Assembly (NCBI GenBank): GCA_937873665.1
Contig: CALMYW010000056.1
Location: forward strand, 1-14,248
Reading direction: 5' to 3'
Source: an uncultured Sphingorhabdus sp.
Lineage (GTDB): Bacteria; Pseudomonadota; Alphaproteobacteria; Sphingomonadales; Sphingomonadaceae
Length of the DNA: 14,248 nt
The notes beneath the pieces were generated by a model. That model had not been told where the DNA came from. It ran no database searches and worked only from the letters and a program-made list of their open reading frames with translations. Made by a program: the position numbers and the translations under genes. Position 1 is the stretch's first letter, and each line of letters starts with the position of its first letter. Below are positions 4,595 to 13,503 of the stretch, in pieces.

Positions 4595-5038
4595 GAAGAC
4601 CTGCGACCGGCCTGCCGAAGGGGCCTCCATTGGCGCGAGCAAGGCGGCCTCGGCGCCGTCACCAGACCGTCTCGATTGCATATACGCGGTGGCCTTACCG
4701 CCTTCGGTAACGATCACATCTTCCAGAGTGCGCAATCGCGAACGGCATGCGGAGTCGAAGTACTCCTTTTTGATGCCAGCGGCAGTTTTCTGGAAGCTGA
4801 CGTCGCCGTTCTCGGCGATCACCGCAGCGACCGGCCCCATGCTGGCCAACATCAATCGCCAGCTGGCCGAGGCGGCCCTGACCGACACGACCGCGATGCC
4901 CGCCTCTTGCAGCTATTCGAGAGCCAACATCGTTGCGCTTTCGAGGCGACCGTTACTGGTCAGCGTGTTGTCCACATCGGTGGGTAAGAATTCGACACCG
5001 CTCAACAAGCGTGCGTCGGCTTGCGACCATGGCTGCAT
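4595..5038 (-). pseudogene. Decayed HAD-superfamily phosphatase (HAD-IIB-like), 5' part only
   Basis: From an ATG at 5038 the minus strand reads as the start of a Cof/mannosyl-3-phosphoglycerate-phosphatase-like HAD protein. TDVDNTLTSNGRL (residues 20-32) holds the DxD catalytic aspartates. After 41 codons an amber TAG (4915-4913) interrupts the gene, yet homology continues in the same frame beyond it: LQEAGIAVV, then PVAAVIAENGDVSF. The alignment to the family across this part needs no gap, from memory of typical members. The usual motif II segment (VTGRPAGW-like) has become VRAASASW, losing the conserved Thr. Similarity fades near 4700-4600, and the C-terminal half with the last metal-binding aspartates is absent. 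A length near 250-280 residues would be normal. I call it a pseudogene and set the left end approximately. A functional short protein from the internal GTG at 4888 seems unlikely. The 220 bases between it and cysE show no further gene. Confidence 0.75.
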
Positions 5039-5258
5039 CGATGCCCCCTCCCGTGTTGTTGTGGCGGTCACCTGTAGCTCTAGGCTTGGACCCGTCTATT
5101 GAGAATTCCTGATTTGCTTAGCAACTCTTCTTCGTTCACTGGCAGGCGCAAGGATCATAGACAGGTCGTGAATTGTCCAACCATCGGATCGCCCGTGTGC
5201 CTCCTGCGGATGTGACGGTTCGTGCTCGCCTCTGGACCTCACCTGCGAAAGCCAATCC

Positions 5259-6206
5259 ATGACGAAATTCGAAACACGGCCCACTGAAAGCTGGCTGGCG
5301 ATACCCCTGGACAAGATCGTAACCGACCTTCGCGCGTCGCGGTCACGCACGAGGGGATCCGCAGACCACAAACCCTATGCGCGTGAACTGCCCAATCCAG
5401 ATGTTGCGGCACTCGTCGTAAAAGACATCTACGCCGCGCTGTTTCCGCGTCACGGCGGCGGGCAGGACGGCAATGATGAAGGCATAGACTATTTTGTCGG
5501 TCACACGCTCAACCGAGCCTTGCGGTCTTTGCGCGGCCTTATCGAGCAAGAATTGCAGTTCTCCTTCGCCCAGCATCATCAGGATAAGGCAGATGTTGCA
5601 TCGGCGGCGTCTTCGATATTGCAGGACTTCGCCGGCGGCTTGCCCGAGGTTCGCGAAAATCTTCTAACCGACGTTCGCGCCGCCTTTGATGGCGACCCAG
5701 CCGCCCAGACGACCGAAGAAATCCTGCTCAGTTACCCTGGCATCCGCGCGATCTATCATCATCGCCTCGCGCACGAGTTGTTCAGGCTTGGAGCGCCAAT
5801 TGTTGCACGCATTATTGCCGAGATTTCGCATTCCGCAACCGGCATTGACATTCATCCTGGTGCTCGCATCGGCGGCAGCTTCTTCATCGATCATGGCACC
5901 GGCGTCGTCATAGGCGAAACTGCCGTCATCGGCGAGCGCGTGCGGCTGTATCAGGCCGTGACACTCGGCGCCAAACGGTTTTCCGTTGAGGAAAGCGGCG
6001 CGCTGACCAAGGGAGAGGCACGCCATCCGATCGTCGAAGACGATGTCGTCATCTACGCCGGCGCGACGATTCTCGGCCGCGTCACTATTGGCCATGGCTC
6101 GACCATCGGCGGAAATGTCTGGCTGACGCGGAGTGTACCGCCAGGCAGTAACATCGTGCAGGCAATGGCACGAAGCGAAGTGTTCGACAGCGGCGCCGGT
6201 ATTTGA
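5259..6206 (+). CDS. cysE: Serine O-acetyltransferase, EpsC type
   Basis: The 315-residue protein makes O-acetyl-L-serine from serine and acetyl-CoA, the first step of cysteine synthesis; it is cytoplasmic. The N-terminal alpha-helical region includes the EpsC-type motif DYFVGHTLNRAL (77-88). The C-terminal left-handed beta-helix holds hexapeptide repeats and the conserved histidine motifs DIHPGARIGG (197-206, His199) and FIDHGTGVVIGE (209-220, His212). These are followed by VRLYQAVTLGAKRF (228-241) and the coenzyme-binding loop IGGNVWLTRSVPPGSNI. Length and end match the longer EpsC subfamily, not the about 270-residue enteric CysE. The ATG at 5259 gives the expected N-terminus, although the ribosome site before it is weak. 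The gene appears intact. It is followed 95 bases downstream by a broken Family 2A encapsulin shell gene; serine acetyltransferases are known neighbours of that shell family, as in the srp sulfur genes of Synechococcus. It is transcribed divergently from the adhesin. Confidence 0.93.
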   Translation: MTKFETRPTESWLAIPLDKIVTDLRASRSRTRGSADHKPYARELPNPDVAALVVKDIYAALFPRHGGGQDGNDEGIDYFVGHTLNRALRSLRGLIEQELQFSFAQHHQDKADVASAASSILQDFAGGLPEVRENLLTDVRAAFDGDPAAQTTEEILLSYPGIRAIYHHRLAHELFRLGAPIVARIIAEISHSATGIDIHPGARIGGSFFIDHGTGVVIGETAVIGERVRLYQAVTLGAKRFSVEESGALTKGEARHPIVEDDVVIYAGATILGRVTIGHGSTIGGNVWLTRSVPPGSNIVQAMARSEVFDSGAGI

Positions 6207-6301
6207 TTCCAATATAACGACGTTGACGTCCAATGCGCGGTCGCATCTACACAAATTACTGAATTGAACTTGGTTCTGATATAGCAGCAATAGGAAATAC
6301 A

Positions 6302-6772
6302 ATGGCAGACAAACTGCAGACGGCATTGGGCGATATAGCGGCACGACAATTAGCCAATGCAACAAAGACCGTGCCTCAGATGTCGAGCATCACGCCGCGT
6401 TGGCTGGTGCACTTCATGAGCTGGGTGCCTGTCGAAGCCGGCATTTATCGCGTCAACAAAGTGCGCGATCGCTGCGCGATGAACGCGTGCTGCCGCAGAC
6501 CCACGTCGATTACATCGACAACCCGCGCGAATATCTACTCAGCGCCGTACAGACGGTGCTCGACGTGCATACCCGCGTTTCGGATCTCTACAGCGTCCCT
6601 CACAACCAGATCAAGGAGCAGCTTCGCCTGACCATCGAAACGGTGAAAGAGCGCCAGGAAAGCGAACTGATCAACAACAAGGAATACGGGCTTCTGACGC
6701 ATGCCGCCGACTCGCAGAAGATCCAGACCCGGAGCGGCGCGCCGACACCCGATGACCTCGATGAATTGATAG
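6302..6772 (+). pseudogene. Family 2A encapsulin nanocompartment shell protein (SrpI-like), broken 5' half
   Basis: Two overlapping frames together read as the N-terminal half of an SrpI-type encapsulin shell. From ATG 6302 (weak AGGA ribosome site) the first frame gives [24 protein letters not shown] and [14 protein letters not shown]. Then, between about 6458 and 6478, the match jumps to another frame. That frame gives [60 protein letters not shown] and [12 protein letters not shown]. Compared with remembered family members, about a dozen residues are also missing at the junction. The match ends exactly where the IS3 element begins, so roughly the C-terminal half of the usual about 300-residue HK97-fold shell protein is gone. 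Intact Family 2A shells enclose a cysteine desulfurase and are often encoded with serine acetyltransferase and rhodanese genes. The cysE gene just upstream fits; no desulfurase is present in the window. A functional shell cannot be made from this copy. Family assignment is by recognition, without a search. Confidence 0.85.
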
Positions 6773-6798
6773 TGATCCTCCCCCAGTGAAGTGGTCCG
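6773..6798 (+). repeat. Left terminal inverted repeat of the IS3 element
   Basis: The end begins TGATCCTCCCCCA and closes with GTGGTCCG. It aligns with the reverse complement of 8027-8051 with a few mismatches and one base of length difference. Confidence 0.85.
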
Positions 6799-6834
6799 AC
6801 TCGAAGTATGGCTTTTTGCCCGAGGAGGACAGTG

Positions 6835-7113
6835 ATGCCGAGGAAAAAATACAAAGCGGAAGATATCGTCTCAAAGCTTCGCCAGGTTGACGTTTTGGTG
6901 GCTCAGGGGAACAAGGTTCCCGACGCCGTCAGATCGATTGGCGTGACACAGGTGACGTATTATCGCTGGCGGCGTGAGTTCGGCGGCCTGCAGATGGATC
7001 AGGTCAAGCGGTTGAAGGAGCTGGAGCTTGAGAACCAGCGCCTGCGCAAAGCGGTTTCCGACCTGACGCTCGATAAGTTGATCTTGGCCGAGGCTGCCAA
7101 GGGAAACTTCTAA
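6835..7113 (+). CDS. IS3-family transposase OrfA
   Basis: This is a 92-residue DNA-binding subunit. It starts [20 protein letters not shown], the usual OrfA N-terminus, then has a helix-turn-helix around [22 protein letters not shown] and a leucine-zipper-like heptad segment ([18 protein letters not shown]). I prefer the ATG at 6835 to the in-frame ATG at 6808: it follows a strong CGAGGAGG ribosome site and gives the N-terminus typical of the family. The protein ends at TAA 7111-7113. A slippery heptamer just before the stop would let ribosomes move into the orfB frame to make the full OrfAB transposase. Confidence 0.9.
7101..7107 (+). other. Programmed -1 ribosomal frameshift site (GGGAAAC heptamer)
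   Basis: In the orfA frame the bases read AAG GGA AAC, which fits the X XXY YYZ slippery pattern as G GGA AAC. A shift back by one base here moves into the frame GGG AAA CTT CTA AGC CCC, which runs open into orfB. In that frame the family-typical segment LSPARRR and [20 protein letters not shown] follows. The orfA stop is only four bases further on. IS3 elements are known to make their OrfAB transposase by -1 frameshifting; I did not model a downstream stimulatory structure. Confidence 0.8.
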
Positions 7114-7184
7114 GCCCCGCCCGCCGACGCGTTTGTATCGAGCATGTTCGACGTGAGCTTCACGTCTCCGAGCGTCGCGCCTGC

Positions 7185-8018
7185 GTGGCGCTCGGACAGC
7201 ATCGCTCGACGCAAAGGAAGGTGCCGACGGGGCGCGATGACGAAGAGCGCCTAACCGCCGATATTATTGAACTGGCTCGCCGATACGGTCGCTACGGCTA
7301 TCGCAAGATCGCCGCGCTGCTGCGCCATGCCGGCTGGCTAGTGAACGACAAGCGGGTCGAGCGCATCTGGCGGCGTGAGGGGCTGAAGGTTCCTTACAAA
7401 CAACCCAAACGCGGTCGTCTGTGGCTGACAGACGGCTCGTGCATCCGACTGCGCCCGGAGCACCGCAATCATGTGTGGTCCTACGACTTCGTCGAGGATC
7501 GCACACATGACGGACGGAAATACCGGATGCTCAACGTGGTCGATGAGTTCACGCATGAGAGCTTGGCGATCAGGGTGCGGCGCAAGCTGAAATCGATCGA
7601 CGTGATCGACGTTCTCTCAGAGCTGTTCGTCCTGCGCGGCGTTCCAGGACACATTCGCTCTGATAACGGCCCTGAGTTCATCGCCGAAGCTGTGCAGAAC
7701 TGGATCACCGCTGTTGGATCGAAGACGGCTTACATCGCGCCGGGCAGCCCGTGGGAGAACGGATACGTCGAGAGCTTCAACGCCCGGCTCAGAGACGAAC
7801 TGCTGAACGGGGAGATTTTCTACTCGCTCCGTGAGGCTCAGATCGTCATTGAGAGCTGGCGCCGGCATTACAACGCAGTGAGGCCGCATGCTTCGCTCGG
7901 CTACAAAGCACCAGCGCCTGAGGTCTTCGTTCCCGCCCTTGCTGCATGGCCGCCTACGCGGGCTACGCCCGCTCCACCGTCCACGCAGCATCTAGCCGAA
8001 GGAGGGGCTATGAACTAA
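7185..8018 (+). CDS. IS3-family transposase OrfB (DDE integrase core)
   Basis: This is the catalytic part of the transposase, 277 codons from a GTG at 7185. The frame is in fact open from 7101, so the natural product is probably OrfAB (6835-8018) made by -1 frameshifting, and the GTG is only a nominal start. An HTH_21-type segment ([20 protein letters not shown]) precedes the integrase core. The acidic triad is visible as the Asp in VWSYDFVED, the Asp in [10 protein letters not shown] and the Glu in [18 protein letters not shown]. The C-terminal motif [21 protein letters not shown] is typical of the IS407/IS3 group. No stop or frameshift breaks it, so the element may still move. Confidence 0.92.
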
Positions 8019-8026
8019 CATTGCAC

Positions 8027-8051
8027 CGGACCACCCGATGGGGGCTGATCA
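8027..8051 (-). repeat. Right terminal inverted repeat of the IS3 element
   Basis: Read on the minus strand it begins TGATCAGCCCCCA and closes with GTGGTCCG, matching the left end. It starts 8 bases after the orfB stop codon. Confidence 0.85.
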
Positions 8052-8414
8052 GGCTTAGCTGGATTTTTACTTACGTTATTCCAATGGCTTATGAGCCTGT
8101 GCAATGGACAGCGGGTCGGCGCTCAAACACCCAACCTGACATTTCGTCATACCGTTTGCGCCTGTTTTCACACGGGTCGCTGAAATCATTGGAATCGGCG
8201 CCCTGACAATTTGGCAGTGGCTTGAATCGCCTTGGAATGCGGGACTGTTTCAGGGTGGCTCGGCGGCTCAACGCCAAAACGTTCGAGCATCAAAATAGAT
8301 GTCTCGCCATTGCCCCAGCGGGTGGCACGCGCGACGGCAAACGGTGTTGTGCTTGCGGAGACAAACAATGCCAGTCGCGCCAAACTGCGTGGAACATCGC
8401 CTGCTTCTCAGCGT
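8052..8414. other. 363-bp stretch between the IS and the adaptor gene, no recognisable gene
   Basis: I find no shell-gene continuation here in any frame and no recognised protein. Two weak open frames exist. One is on the minus strand (8383-8186, TTG start, containing RWGNGETSILMLERFGVEPP). The other is on the plus strand, running out of the IS to 8206. Neither has a ribosome site or a family I know. A 9-base inverted pair ATTCCAATG/CATTGGAAT lies at 8078-8086 and 8187-8195, about 100 bases apart, possibly by chance. No convincing terminator for the secretion operon is visible. Confidence 0.4.
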
Positions 8415-9770
8415 CTATCGTTCCCTGAGTGCGCTCTGGCGCATACGTGTTAGGGGCTTCATGATGTAGCTGAGAACGGATTTCTGACCGGTCCGCACAT
8501 CGACATCTGCCACCATGCCTGGGAGCACCTGAAACTCTTTGTCGTTCTGCAGCAGGGTTCGCCCTGCGGTCCGCACTTGGATCAGATAATACGTCACGCC
8601 TTGGTCGTCGGTGATGCTGTCCGCACCGATCTGCTCGACGCGCCCCTCAAGGCCGCCATAAAGTGAGAAGTCGTAGGCCGACAGTTTCACCACTGCTGGA
8701 AGCCCCGGATACATGAAGGCGATATCATTCGGCTTGATGCGCGCTTCGACAACCAGCGTATCGTTCATCGGAACAATTTCGATCAGGCTCTGACCCGGCT
8801 GCACGACTTGACCCGGCGTTGTGACGTGCACGGTCTTGACGATGCCGGCCACCGGCGCCTTCACAACAGTCCGCGACACACGATCCTCGCCGCCGCGTGC
8901 CTGCTCGCCCAGAACGCCAGCCTCCACACGCGCACTCGATAATTGCTGCATGGCCTCGCTGCGGAAAGCCGATATTTTCTCGTTGATCCGGTCGCGCGCC
9001 TCGCGTACTGCCGCTTCGAGACGCGGCAACGACAATTCAGCCGCCGACAGGCTGCCCGCCGTATCGTTCACCTTGCTTTCGATGGCCAGCATCTCCGCCC
9101 GCGAGGCCGCCTTGCTCTGAACGAGAGGCTGCAACAGCGCCAGCTGTTCATTGGCGAGCGCCAGAGCGCGCTTCAGCGTTTCAATGCGGTCCTTGACCTC
9201 GACGACTTCCTGCGTCCGCTGGCTCTCCTGCGTGGTGAACACATCGATTGCCGATTTAAGCTCGCGCTCGCGGCTACCGAAGTGCTGCATTTGAGTCGCG
9301 ACCAAGTCCGGCCGCCGCGTCGCCAGATGATCTGGGAATTGTGGTGTGGCGCCGCGCACCTCTGCCTCCAGCCGGACAATGAGCGCTTCGAAGCTGTCGA
9401 TCTTTTCCTGCGTTTCACCGAGCGACGAACCCGCTTGTGTCGGATCGATCTTCAACAGCACGTCGCCGGCCTTGACCGTGGCGCCTTCGCGCACCAAGAC
9501 CTCGCGCACGATACCGCCTTCGAGGTTTTGAATAACCTGCAGCTTGCTCGCCGGAATAACGCGGCCCTGTCCTGTCGTCACCTCGTCGATGCGTGCGAAC
9601 GCCGCCCAGACGAAAAACCCGATCACCAGCGCGATCAGACTGAGCAGAAGCCGATCTAGCCCGCGCGCAGGCCGCGCCAGCAGATCAGCGCTGATGGCCG
9701 ACGGCACACCGATCGGCCGCCGCACTTTAGGTTGCTCCGGCTTGCTCACCGATAGAGGCGCCGCCGTCAT
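8415..9770 (-). CDS. Type I secretion membrane-fusion (adaptor) protein, HlyD/LapC family
   Basis: This 451-residue protein joins the inner-membrane ABC transporter to the TolC channel across the periplasm. After a short cytoplasmic N-terminus a single membrane helix (about residues 40-58, LLLSLIALVIGFFVWAAF) is followed by the family-typical segment TTGQGRVIPASKLQVIQNLEGG. The lipoyl half (VREGATVKAGDVLLKIDPTQ), a long alpha-hairpin rich in Glu, Arg and Ala (about 115-295), and the returning lipoyl/beta-barrel part (VVKAPVAGIVKTVHV, GQSLIEIVP) come next. It ends with the conserved PGMVADVDVRTGQKSVLSYIMKPL. Length and layout match TIGR01843-type adaptors. Its ATG overlaps the stop of the ABC transporter gene in ATGA (4 bases), so the two are translationally coupled. 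It is intact and is the last gene of the secretion operon. Confidence 0.95.
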   Translation of the reverse strand: MTAAPLSVSKPEQPKVRRPIGVPSAISADLLARPARGLDRLLLSLIALVIGFFVWAAFARIDEVTTGQGRVIPASKLQVIQNLEGGIVREVLVREGATVKAGDVLLKIDPTQAGSSLGETQEKIDSFEALIVRLEAEVRGATPQFPDHLATRRPDLVATQMQHFGSRERELKSAIDVFTTQESQRTQEVVEVKDRIETLKRALALANEQLALLQPLVQSKAASRAEMLAIESKVNDTAGSLSAAELSLPRLEAAVREARDRINEKISAFRSEAMQQLSSARVEAGVLGEQARGGEDRVSRTVVKAPVAGIVKTVHVTTPGQVVQPGQSLIEIVPMNDTLVVEARIKPNDIAFMYPGLPAVVKLSAYDFSLYGGLEGRVEQIGADSITDDQGVTYYLIQVRTAGRTLLQNDKEFQVLPGMVADVDVRTGQKSVLSYIMKPLTRMRQSALRER

Positions 9771-12040
9771 GCGACACCCCCGGACGGAAGCCTGACCGCG
9801 CCAGCAGCCGAAATGGTCACCTTGGGTGTCTGCGCCGCCGTTCGCCGGGCTTCGAGTTCTCTTAGAACGTCAGCCTTCTTGCCATCGAGAATGACGCGGC
9901 CGCCTTCCATAACGATCAAGCGATCCACCAGCGCCAACACCGCCGGACGATGGGAAATGGCAACGATCGTGCAATCCTTCAAAGCTGCCTTCATTGAGCG
10001 CACGACGTGCTGCTCGGTCAGGAGGTCCATGTCGCTCGTCGGTTCATCGAGCAGCACGATCCGCGGGCTTCTAAACAACGCGCGCGCCAGCGCCACCGAT
10101 TGTCTCTGTCCGCCTGAGAGGCCCGCGCCTCGTTCGCGCACCAGTGTTTCGAATCCCTTGGGAAGCTTGAGTATCCACTCCAGCGCACCAGCCGCGCGTG
10201 CTGCCGCGATCACGTCCTCATCCGGCGCACCCGGATCGGCGAGCGCAATGTTGGTGCGGATGGTCCCGTGAAAAAGATCAGCCCCCTGCAGCGCCAGCCC
10301 GATATTGGCGCGCAGCAGCGACGGATCAATCTGATGCACCGGCACGCCATCGGCCGTCACCCGGCCCTTGTTCGGCACATATACGGCATGCATGAGCTTC
10401 AACAACGTCGTCTTGCCGCTGCCGATGGCTCCGATGAGCCCGACATGCTCACCGGGCGCGATCGTAAACGTCACATCCGATAGGCAGGGCGGCTCATCCT
10501 TATCGTAGAAAAACCCCAAGCCCTCAACTGCAAGGCGTCCTGAAAATTCAGCTTTCGCCAGCAGCCGCGCGCCTTCTGGACACTCTTGTTCGAGATCCAC
10601 GATTTCCGAAAGCGCCCTAAAGGCCAGCCGGGTTTGATGCAGCCGCGTGATCAGCATCGCGATCTGGCCCAGCGGCTGCCACGCCCGGCCCGCCAGCATC
10701 GTTGCTGCAATGAGCCCGCCCCTGGTCAGGCTGCCCGCTGCCACGAGATAGAAACCCGCGACGACCATGGCGATTTGCGTCAGCGTCTGGATGGCGAAGA
10801 TCGTGTGGATACCGAGATTGGAGATGTATCGGCTCGCATGCGCGGCCCGGATCTGATCGCTGACCGCCGCCTCCCACTTACCCGCTGCCCAACTCTCCGC
10901 GCCCGCAGCCTTGACGCTGTCGAGGCCGACGATCGTCTCGACGATGATCGCGTTTTTCTGTGCCGAGTCTCTGAAACTTTTTTCCGAAAGCCGCGTCAAC
11001 CGCTTCTGCGTCACCCAACCAATGCCGAGCACCACGGGTATTGTCAGGAGCGCGATCCATCCCAGCGGCCCGCCCACCACGAAGATCATCGCCAAGAAGA
11101 AGATCAGAAACGGCACATCGCCAAATGCCGTGAGGGTTGCGGAATTGAAGAATTCGCGAAGCGTCTCGAATTCCCTGAGCGCGTTGGCTCTGACGCCTGC
11201 CGAGACCGGACGGACATTGGCTCGCGCACCGAGAAGCCGCCCAAATATAAGATTGGCAAGCACGACGTCCGCCCGCCGCGACGCGACATCGACAAACTCC
11301 GCCCGCAGCGTCTTGATGAGAAAATCAAACAGCGTCGCCAGCACAACGCCGATAGCGAGCGCCCACAGCGTCGTCTCGACCGCATTCGGCAGAACGCGAT
11401 CGTAGACATTCATCGTGAAGAGCGGCAGCGCCAGCGCCAGAAGATTCAAAGCCACCGTGGCCGCGATGGCCTCGCCGTAAATTTTTCCACTGTCGCGAAA
11501 CGCCGACAGAAACCAGTTGTTGCCCGAACGGCGGACGGCCGTCTCACCGCGCTCGTCGCGCCCCGCCTCGGGTCGTAGCCGCACGATTTGGCGCGAGGGC
11601 GCCTGTTCGATCGCGTTCAGCGGCAGCGCGATGCGCGCCTCGGACTGACCAGGACGAGACAGCCGCGCCGTCGCCCCTTGGTCTGAGGTGCCCGCTTCGA
11701 ACTCCCACAACACTACGCAGCTGCCGCCGCTTGTCATCACAAGCACCGGCAAATCGTGGGCTTTGAGTGTGGAGAGCGGCACAGTCGCGACGTCAGCACT
11801 CAGATTGGCGCGCCGCGCGGCAGACGCCACATGTTCGAGCGGCAAGCGCCCCTCGACCAACGGCAAACCGGCAACGAGGACTTTCGCGACCGTTCTCGAT
11901 CCGTAATGAGCGGCGACGTCGCAGAGAGCCTGCGCAAGAATATCCTGCGGACCGTCGTCCCGCGAATGAGAAACGGCCGCCGCCATTTGCTGGGCTGCCG
12001 CCTCCAATTGTCCGACCATGTCTGCTGTGCCATCGCTCAT
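9767..12040 (-). CDS. Type I secretion ABC transporter/permease, LapB-like, with degenerate C39 domain
   Basis: This 757-residue inner-membrane exporter drives transport of RTX/adhesin substrates by ATP hydrolysis. Residues 1-150 form a C39-like domain; where the catalytic Cys of active C39 peptidases would stand, the sequence has Ile (QDILAQALCDVAAHYG), so it probably binds substrate rather than cutting it. The membrane domain spans about 185-440, with hydrophobic helices near 190-210, 226-243, 305-345 and 412-436. The nucleotide-binding domain has Walker A GAIGSGKTT (537-545), Q-loop Gln585, signature LSGGQRQ (641-647), Walker B IVLLDEP (661-667) and switch His697. It resembles the LssB/LapB subfamily (TIGR03375) that serves large adhesins. 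It starts 44 bases after the tolC-like stop and overlaps the adaptor gene by 4 bases. A proline- and alanine-containing tail of about 30 residues follows the NBD. Confidence 0.95.
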   Translation of the reverse strand: MSDGTADMVGQLEAAAQQMAAAVSHSRDDGPQDILAQALCDVAAHYGSRTVAKVLVAGLPLVEGRLPLEHVASAARRANLSADVATVPLSTLKAHDLPVLVMTSGGSCVVLWEFEAGTSDQGATARLSRPGQSEARIALPLNAIEQAPSRQIVRLRPEAGRDERGETAVRRSGNNWFLSAFRDSGKIYGEAIAATVALNLLALALPLFTMNVYDRVLPNAVETTLWALAIGVVLATLFDFLIKTLRAEFVDVASRRADVVLANLIFGRLLGARANVRPVSAGVRANALREFETLREFFNSATLTAFGDVPFLIFFLAMIFVVGGPLGWIALLTIPVVLGIGWVTQKRLTRLSEKSFRDSAQKNAIIVETIVGLDSVKAAGAESWAAGKWEAAVSDQIRAAHASRYISNLGIHTIFAIQTLTQIAMVVAGFYLVAAGSLTRGGLIAATMLAGRAWQPLGQIAMLITRLHQTRLAFRALSEIVDLEQECPEGARLLAKAEFSGRLAVEGLGFFYDKDEPPCLSDVTFTIAPGEHVGLIGAIGSGKTTLLKLMHAVYVPNKGRVTADGVPVHQIDPSLLRANIGLALQGADLFHGTIRTNIALADPGAPDEDVIAAARAAGALEWILKLPKGFETLVRERGAGLSGGQRQSVALARALFRSPRIVLLDEPTSDMDLLTEQHVVRSMKAALKDCTIVAISHRPAVLALVDRLIVMEGGRVILDGKKADVLRELEARRTAAQTPKVTISAAGAVRLPSGGVA

Positions 12041-12084: not shown

Positions 12085-13503
12085 TTACTTGGCCGGCGCG
12101 GTGTCTGCGCTCCAGCTGTGATAGCCCTCGCGCGGCACGGCATTGACCTCTGCACGCCAACCTTCGATCAGGTTTTCCGCCGGTGGCTGCGCCGCCTCAA
12201 GCGGCATGTCCAGACCGAGCCCCGGAACCAGACGTCCCATGGCCGCAAGCAGACGATAGCTGCTGTAGATGCCGATCAGCTCTTCGGTTTTCAGCGAGCT
12301 GTTGACGACGAAAATTTCATTCTGCACATCCAGAATATCGAGGAGACGGCGCTGGCCGACGTCGAATTGCTCCAGATAGGCCGAGCGCCGTTGGCGTTGC
12401 AGGCTGAGTTGCTCGCGCAGCTCCGGCACCCGCACCGAAGCCGCCTTAAGCGCGTTCCACGAGATGCGCGTCTCGCGCTCCACATTGCGGGATGTGTTCG
12501 CCGAGATTTCATCGGCCTCCGCTGCCCGGGCGCGGGCTTCCCAGATGCGTGCTTTGTCGATACCGCCGTTGAACAAGTTCCAGCGCACTACCAGCATGGC
12601 GGTGGCGTCGTAGTTCTTGTCGTTGTCCTCGACGAGGCCCCAGCCGTGATTGGTCGAGACTTCGAAATTCAGCTTCGGGCTGAAGCGCGCATAGGTCGAG
12701 CCCACGGCCGCTTCGGCAGCCAACGCATCAAACTGCGTGGCAACGACCGAAGGCGCCACCTGCACGGCTTCGCCCACGGCATCATCTACCGACCTCGGCA
12801 GGCCCCTAGCTGGCGAAGCGGCATCGAGCTTCGCTGGCATCCGGCCGACGACGGATTTGAAAAGCGCATAGGCATCTTGCACCCGCGCAGCTGCTTCGGC
12901 GACGATCGCCTTGGCATTGGCGGTGCGTGCTGCCGCTTCAGTACTTTCGGCTGCGTTGGCCATACCACCGTCTGCGCGCTGGCGCACGCGCGCCAAGAGA
13001 CCTCGGTGAGCTTCGAGATTGGCCTCAGCCGCCGATAACACGGCTCTGGCGCGGTTACATTCGAGATAGGCTTGCACGGCACGCAGCGCGATCGAGTTGG
13101 CGGTGTCGTTGACGCGCCAGCGCGCGCTTTCTACGCGGTTCTTTTGGCGTGCGATTTCATGTTGGCTCTCGAACCCGTCGAAGATCCGTTGCGAGAAAAC
13201 CGTTCCCACGCCGTCGCGGTCGTGCCAGTCGTTACTGTCTTTGATGCCGTTGCCGGTCACGCTGAATTCGCGGTGACGGCCCACGTCCGCCTTGACGTCG
13301 ACCGTCGGCAGGTTCAGCCCGCGCGCTGCGTTGAGTTCATTATCAATGGCGCGTCTGTTGAACCGAATGGCGGCAAGCTCTGGGTGACCTTCAAGTGCTT
13401 CCTGCACAACGCCAACGAGGGAATCGGCGACGGCGGCCGGAGCCGCAATCGAGCAGACAAGCGCCACCGCCGCAGCTCGAAGAGCCACGTATCCGCGTAT
13501 CAT
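12085..13503 (-). CDS. Type I secretion outer-membrane channel, TolC family
   Basis: This 472-residue protein forms the outer-membrane exit duct of the type I system. An N-terminal Sec signal peptide (AAAVALVCSIAAPAAVA, cleavage probably after residue 26) precedes two OEP repeats. Repeat 1 contains ALEGHPELAAIRFN, GLNLPTVDVKADVG and FSQRIFDGFES; repeat 2 contains ALAAEAAVGSTYARFSPKLNF, VVRWNLFNGG and QRRLLDILDVQNEIFVVNSS. The second strand-turn ends YRLLAAMGRL, typical of TIGR01844. The start is supported by an AGGGGG ribosome site four bases before the ATG at 13503. It is the first gene of a three-gene operon with the ABC transporter and the adaptor. The terminator at 13856-13893 separates it from the RTX gene upstream, so it probably has its own promoter in 13504-13855. 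Confidence 0.94.
   Translation of the reverse strand: MIRGYVALRAAAVALVCSIAAPAAVADSLVGVVQEALEGHPELAAIRFNRRAIDNELNAARGLNLPTVDVKADVGRHREFSVTGNGIKDSNDWHDRDGVGTVFSQRIFDGFESQHEIARQKNRVESARWRVNDTANSIALRAVQAYLECNRARAVLSAAEANLEAHRGLLARVRQRADGGMANAAESTEAAARTANAKAIVAEAAARVQDAYALFKSVVGRMPAKLDAASPARGLPRSVDDAVGEAVQVAPSVVATQFDALAAEAAVGSTYARFSPKLNFEVSTNHGWGLVEDNDKNYDATAMLVVRWNLFNGGIDKARIWEARARAAEADEISANTSRNVERETRISWNALKAASVRVPELREQLSLQRQRRSAYLEQFDVGQRRLLDILDVQNEIFVVNSSLKTEELIGIYSSYRLLAAMGRLVPGLGLDMPLEAAQPPAENLIEGWRAEVNAVPREGYHSWSADTAPAK

Follow-up and report, generated by a model that had tools for sequence, protein, structure and literature searches.

In the window (the whole stretch of 14,248 bases analysed here), a Family 2A encapsulin operon of the type EpsC – shell – cysteine desulfurase, from a Hyphomicrobium-like bacterium, is very probably present as a copy that was inactivated recently. 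The shell gene has two lesions: about 25 bases have been lost, which shifts its frame after about residue 54, and an inserted IS3-family element cuts it off at residue 165 of 303. HAD hydrolase, EpsC and shell follow each other as they do in the closest relative, but in the window the HAD gene is a relic as well. The operon itself is already known, and the break is ordinary decay.

According to two papers, Family 2A shells enclose a cysteine desulfurase, and serine acetyltransferases are among the most enriched neighbours (PMC8346489, PMC8049743). With the Family 2A encapsulin cysteine desulfurase operon of the SrpI type (NF041162 for the shell, NF041166 for the cargo), the window shares the shell matches and the EpsC gene upstream; it differs in that the shell lies in two frames and is cut by an insertion sequence (IS), and in that there is no cargo gene within the window. 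The features are collected in Table 1.

Table 1. Features of the window in order of position, with strand and the basis of each assignment.
Feature	Positions	Strand	Basis or remark
Large repeat adhesin, N-terminal 1472 aa	3-4418	-	runs off the contig
HAD-IIB hydrolase relic	4727-5038	-	internal stop; tblastn; gene upstream of EpsC in G443
EpsC-type serine O-acetyltransferase, 315 aa	5259-6206	+	intact, C-terminus GI; NCBIfam, Pfam and structure matches
Family 2A encapsulin shell relic, residues 1-54, first frame	6302-6463	+	profile and structure matches
Frame-shift site, about 25 bases of the relatives missing	6464-6469	+	comparison with relatives
Family 2A encapsulin shell relic, residues 65-165 of 303 by P0254, second frame	6469-6771	+	profile, Pfam and structure matches
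IS3-family insertion sequence, full-length, 1279 bases	6773-8051	+	inverted ends, two transposase frames
IS3 transposase OrfA	6808-7113	+	ORF as listed; the true start is perhaps a later ATG
IS3 transposase OrfB, integrase core	7185-8018	+	ORF as listed
Stretch between the IS and the HlyD gene, 363 bases	8052-8414		no recognisable gene, no significant shell or cargo similarity
HlyD-type secretion adaptor	8415-9770	-	
Type I secretion ABC transporter	9767-12040	-	
TolC-family outer membrane protein	12085-13503	-	
RTX adhesin, C-terminal 125 aa	13871-14248	-	enters from the contig end

The shell pieces and the EpsC gene

The two shell frames were searched separately, without joining them. The first reading (6302-6631) matches the NCBIfam profile encap_f2a (NF041162) over positions 1-59 (E 5.2e-21, 75 bits) and the SrpI structure 6x8m over chain residues 7-71 (E 4.4e-22), while no Pfam family was found in it. 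The second reading (6466-6789) matches encap_f2a over positions 59-158 of 295 (E 2.7e-47, 161.3 bits), the SrpI-like Pfam family PF19307 (E 2.4e-44) and chain residues 66-167 of 314 of 6x8m (E 4.9e-46). The shell homology of both pieces is far beyond chance, and the SrpI-type Family 2A shell that the preliminary description had recognised is thus confirmed by each frame searched apart. Both scores lie below the full-length cut-off of NF041162 (380 bits): the gene is clearly homologous but incomplete.

The preliminary description also placed an intact EpsC-type cysE gene directly before the shell, which holds. The product scores 165.4 bits (E 9e-49) against NCBIfam NF041874 EPS_EpsC, whose cut-off is 150; of the solved structures it matches 3f1x best (E 6.1e-74), and a hexapeptide domain was found in it. 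The same order is kept in all 24 genomes of one family that carry this EpsC. The window therefore includes the accessory serine acetyltransferase of a Family 2A system (5259-6206), and the start of the shell reading at 6302 lies 95 bases past the EpsC stop. The region 6180-6320, which covers the gap between the two genes, folds as RNA no better than its own shuffles (z 0.69).

In CysE enzymes, the terminal GI serves the docking of cysteine synthase; the product of EpsC enzymes is O-acetylserine. This terminal GI is present in the window EpsC and in all 23 relatives' tails examined. In family score, hexapeptide domain and GI tail the protein is like the EpsC type (NF041874, 3f1x), with no notable difference. 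It has a private change at 1 of 112 invariant sites in a comparison with 23 relatives, which themselves have between 0 and 5 such changes. Judging from its family and its conserved tail, EpsC could still supply O-acetylserine for cysteine synthesis.

Among the matches listed, the nearest EpsC (P0001) is identical as far as residue 307 but for a single residue, and then has another tail, which replaces the C-terminal GI. A contig from a viral collection (L181, 207-1049) encodes an EpsC that is 62% identical to P0001.

The operon in relatives

In a scan of genome contigs with EpsC, 596 matches were confirmed and 80 were listed, and a shell lies within about 500 bases downstream in 19 of these 80. 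A sample of 103 genomes of one family, in which EpsC was counted at E 1e-60 or better, includes 24 genomes with the window-type EpsC and 29 shells that pass the cut-off and have no internal stops. The comparison of the locus in relatives, proposed in the preliminary description, bears out its reading of the gene order: a full shell stands directly behind EpsC in 24/24 genomes (the shell match starts 111-140 bases past the EpsC match), and the catalytic domain of a cysteine desulfurase was found within the 1,500-base flank downstream of 28 of the 29 shells. None of these 29 shells is shortened.

One of the 28 desulfurases (that of genome G398) consists of 31 residues followed by the contig end; the shell for which no desulfurase domain was found (G434) is on a contig that ends 670 bases past it. 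Pfam assigns the neighbour of the shell to the class V aminotransferases in the six loci analysed with it, and in the two loci tested with NCBIfam this neighbour passes the cut-off of NF041166, the 2A cargo family. CysB-type regulators and genes for sulfate-binding proteins are found near the operon in the loci examined (L106, L107, L127/L128 and L129), which is consistent with the published sulfur role. The relatives give a clean picture of a conserved EpsC – shell – desulfurase operon in Hyphomicrobium-like bacteria, the label Hyphomicrobium resting on P0002 and P0254. Among open-licence papers, none on encapsulins with Hyphomicrobium was found, and none was found by title on an encapsulin pseudogene of this kind; one paper names encapsulins together with serine O-acetyltransferase, and among the 15 listed for encapsulins with insertion sequences, one contains the word encapsulin.

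In the closest relative (G443) the genes are arranged as sulfate-binding protein, HAD-IIB hydrolase on the opposite strand, EpsC, shell and desulfurase. Its DNA matches the window at 78% over 5374-6770, and the match stops at the IS. The HAD relic of the window corresponds to 107 of the 255 residues of the G443 gene, with 55% identity. Since the order is that of G443 and the HAD gene finds its counterpart there, the stretch from about 4727 to 6771 is one ancestral block, broken at both ends.

Beyond this family, a Candidatus Binataceae MAG (L001, 7370-10189) has EpsC followed by a shell of 486 aa, which is closer in length to a Family 2B shell. A search for shell relatives in viral contigs gave three pattern matches, none of which is a relative. 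The shell occurs on 33 records of the plasmid collection, 23 of them at 60-80% identity and 10 below 60%. Three chromosome-sized records of this collection from Acinetobacter baumannii (NZ_CP077849.1, NZ_CP064203.1 and NZ_CP104448.1) carry a 73% identical Family 2A shell, with no gene listed under the match in a gene table that is incomplete.

Cargo, insertion sequence and secretion locus

As the preliminary description stated, the shell is truncated by an IS; residue 165 of 303 is the last before the element. With its two transposase frames, integrase core and terminal inverted repeats, the element is an ordinary member of the IS3 family. It is 77.0% identical over its whole length to an IS3-family copy on the Lichenihabitans psoromatis plasmid NZ_CP036516.1, and G443 contains two full-length relatives of it (88% and 87% identical).

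No desulfurase with a long N-terminal extension stands beside the shell within the window. The second half of the shell (from one relative) and the desulfurase (from two relatives) have no match in the window at E <= 1; with 19 full-length shells and E up to 10, the matches behind the IS are weak, the best among those listed (E 0.012) being inside the HlyD gene. The desulfurase follows the shell directly in relatives, so the cargo gene would be expected beyond the IS. The preliminary description went further and called the cargo gene absent. As a statement about the organism this is not supported, since the place of the cargo would lie beyond the IS and the gene order suggests a possible misjoin.

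Read from one end, the window contains the C-terminus of the adhesin, TolC, ABC, HlyD, the IS, the shell, EpsC, the HAD relic and the N-terminus of the adhesin. In genome G290, one long adhesin frame is followed by TolC, ABC and HlyD (the frame was read from two overlapping stretches and agrees by coordinates), and the secretion genes of the window are a circular permutation of this order. Both adhesin ends of the window match this single G290 frame, the N-terminal part at 64% and 77% and the C-terminus at 71%; by the G290 gene, about 2,080 residues of the middle are missing from the window. The shell module was described as lying inside an adhesin secretion locus, which is correct for the window contig, whereas in G290 about 363 kb of one contig separate the shell from the secretion locus.

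One explanation of this order, which we regard as evenly balanced, is that two direct copies of the IS led to a misjoin of the contig (a graph cycle). One copy would interrupt the shell gene, whose second half would follow beyond it together with the cargo, and the other would sit behind HlyD. The shell would still be interrupted but the cargo kept, so that a misjoin is compatible with a recently inactivated operon. It would account for the permuted order, given that both adhesin ends belong to one open frame in G290, and G443 provides a precedent for two full-length copies of this IS in one genome. No short repeat is common to the two flanks of the window IS, as a misjoin would have it, but this says little: the two other copies that can be judged at both ends (L171 and L167, unlike L172 and L168) have no target repeat either. 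The target-site duplication is therefore uninformative for or against a simple insertion. Two adhesin paralogues would give the same order.

Besides two collapsed IS copies, the order may come from a genuine circle, from a tandem array or from two genes for adhesins. The contig ends were compared for an exact overlap (10 to 300 bases) that would close a circle, and none was found. It is very unlikely, in our opinion, that two direct IS copies bound a unit of about 20 kb, in which adhesin, TolC, ABC and HlyD are joined by EpsC and the fragment of the shell, that this unit exists as a tandem array or circle, and that EpsC, an enzyme of sulfur assimilation, is being carried off with the adhesin secretion locus on a composite mobile unit.

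It may also be that the genome has lost the second half of the shell and the cargo, perhaps through an adjacent deletion mediated by the IS, which would have brought the relic next to the HlyD side. In favour of this, the window has neither of them, and no relation to the module is seen in the stretch that follows the IS; however, the same data fit a misjoin, and a simple deletion leaves the permuted secretion locus unexplained. We consider a deletion possible but rather doubtful. These observations call for caution: a broken encapsulin gene can be read from raw sequence, but the loss of the cargo cannot be concluded from a contig that is possibly joined via a repeated IS.

Nature and age of the break

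In place of the single open frame of a Family 2A shell, the window has two frames, with about 25 bases missing between them and the IS at 6773; similarity to the shell extends as far as 6771. In the window, 5 bases lie between the codons on either side of the frame break. In the family shells this spacing is 30 bases in 23/29, 33 in 1/29 and 54 in 5/29, the last five being more distant. The shell had been described as split over two frames; the gene is broken indeed, but the spacing points to a loss of about 25 bases relative to close relatives rather than to a point event.

The gap could in principle be an assembly fault, which is a point against the two-lesion explanation. We find it improbable that the 25-base gap is a fault of assembly or sequencing and that the IS alone breaks the shell gene. 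The truncated reading (P0121) is recorded on one contig, whose 14,248 bases equal the window in length, and the residues on both sides are otherwise unchanged, both of which would fit a fault, but gaps of such length are unusual as a read error. We keep to the two-lesion reading, held with high confidence as a whole, in which the window shell is a pseudogene of a recently inactivated Family 2A operon copy. Such a gene would no longer encode the complete HK97 fold, and no shell would be expected to assemble from its products.

A working role of the shortened shell as a small protein of the capsid fold has next to no probability: PMC8346489 describes Family 4 A-domain encapsulins as short capsid-fold proteins, but here the pieces are in different frames, the part that is kept is the first half and no A-domain protein, and 0/29 family shells are shortened.

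An intact full-length shell of 303 aa, P0254 (labelled Hyphomicrobium sp.; 6 member sequences, 41 contigs, the longest of 912,735 bases), is identical to the window pieces at 155/155 residues (54/54 and 101/101). The next best shell after P0254, among the 120 listed of 8000 proteins scored with the G443 shell as query, has 146/155. The break appears to be recent, because all 155 residues are identical to those of the intact P0254. The shell pieces have no private changes at otherwise invariant sites (0/28 and 0/55), which shows only that decay has not piled up in them: this test is weak for dating, as 27/29 and 28/29 working relatives also score 0. Old decay of the shell is not seen by it.

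The preliminary description spoke of a module caught in decay. This applies to the copy in the window and not to the lineage as a whole, which has not lost the shell, since an intact one exists that is identical over the 155 residues and probably belongs to the same species. For studies of the role of the shell, still unsolved, a strain that retains EpsC but has its shell knocked out would offer a natural comparison.

The shortened shell is not unique. A search with the broken reading gave 680 short shell relatives, and several of the 120 listed are on long contigs; among these matches, P0160 is on 40,941 bases and P0133 on 8,543,337. P0160 (a shortened shell reading of 159 aa) and P0009 (a window-type EpsC) both have a longest contig of 40,941 bases, and may belong to a second broken module.
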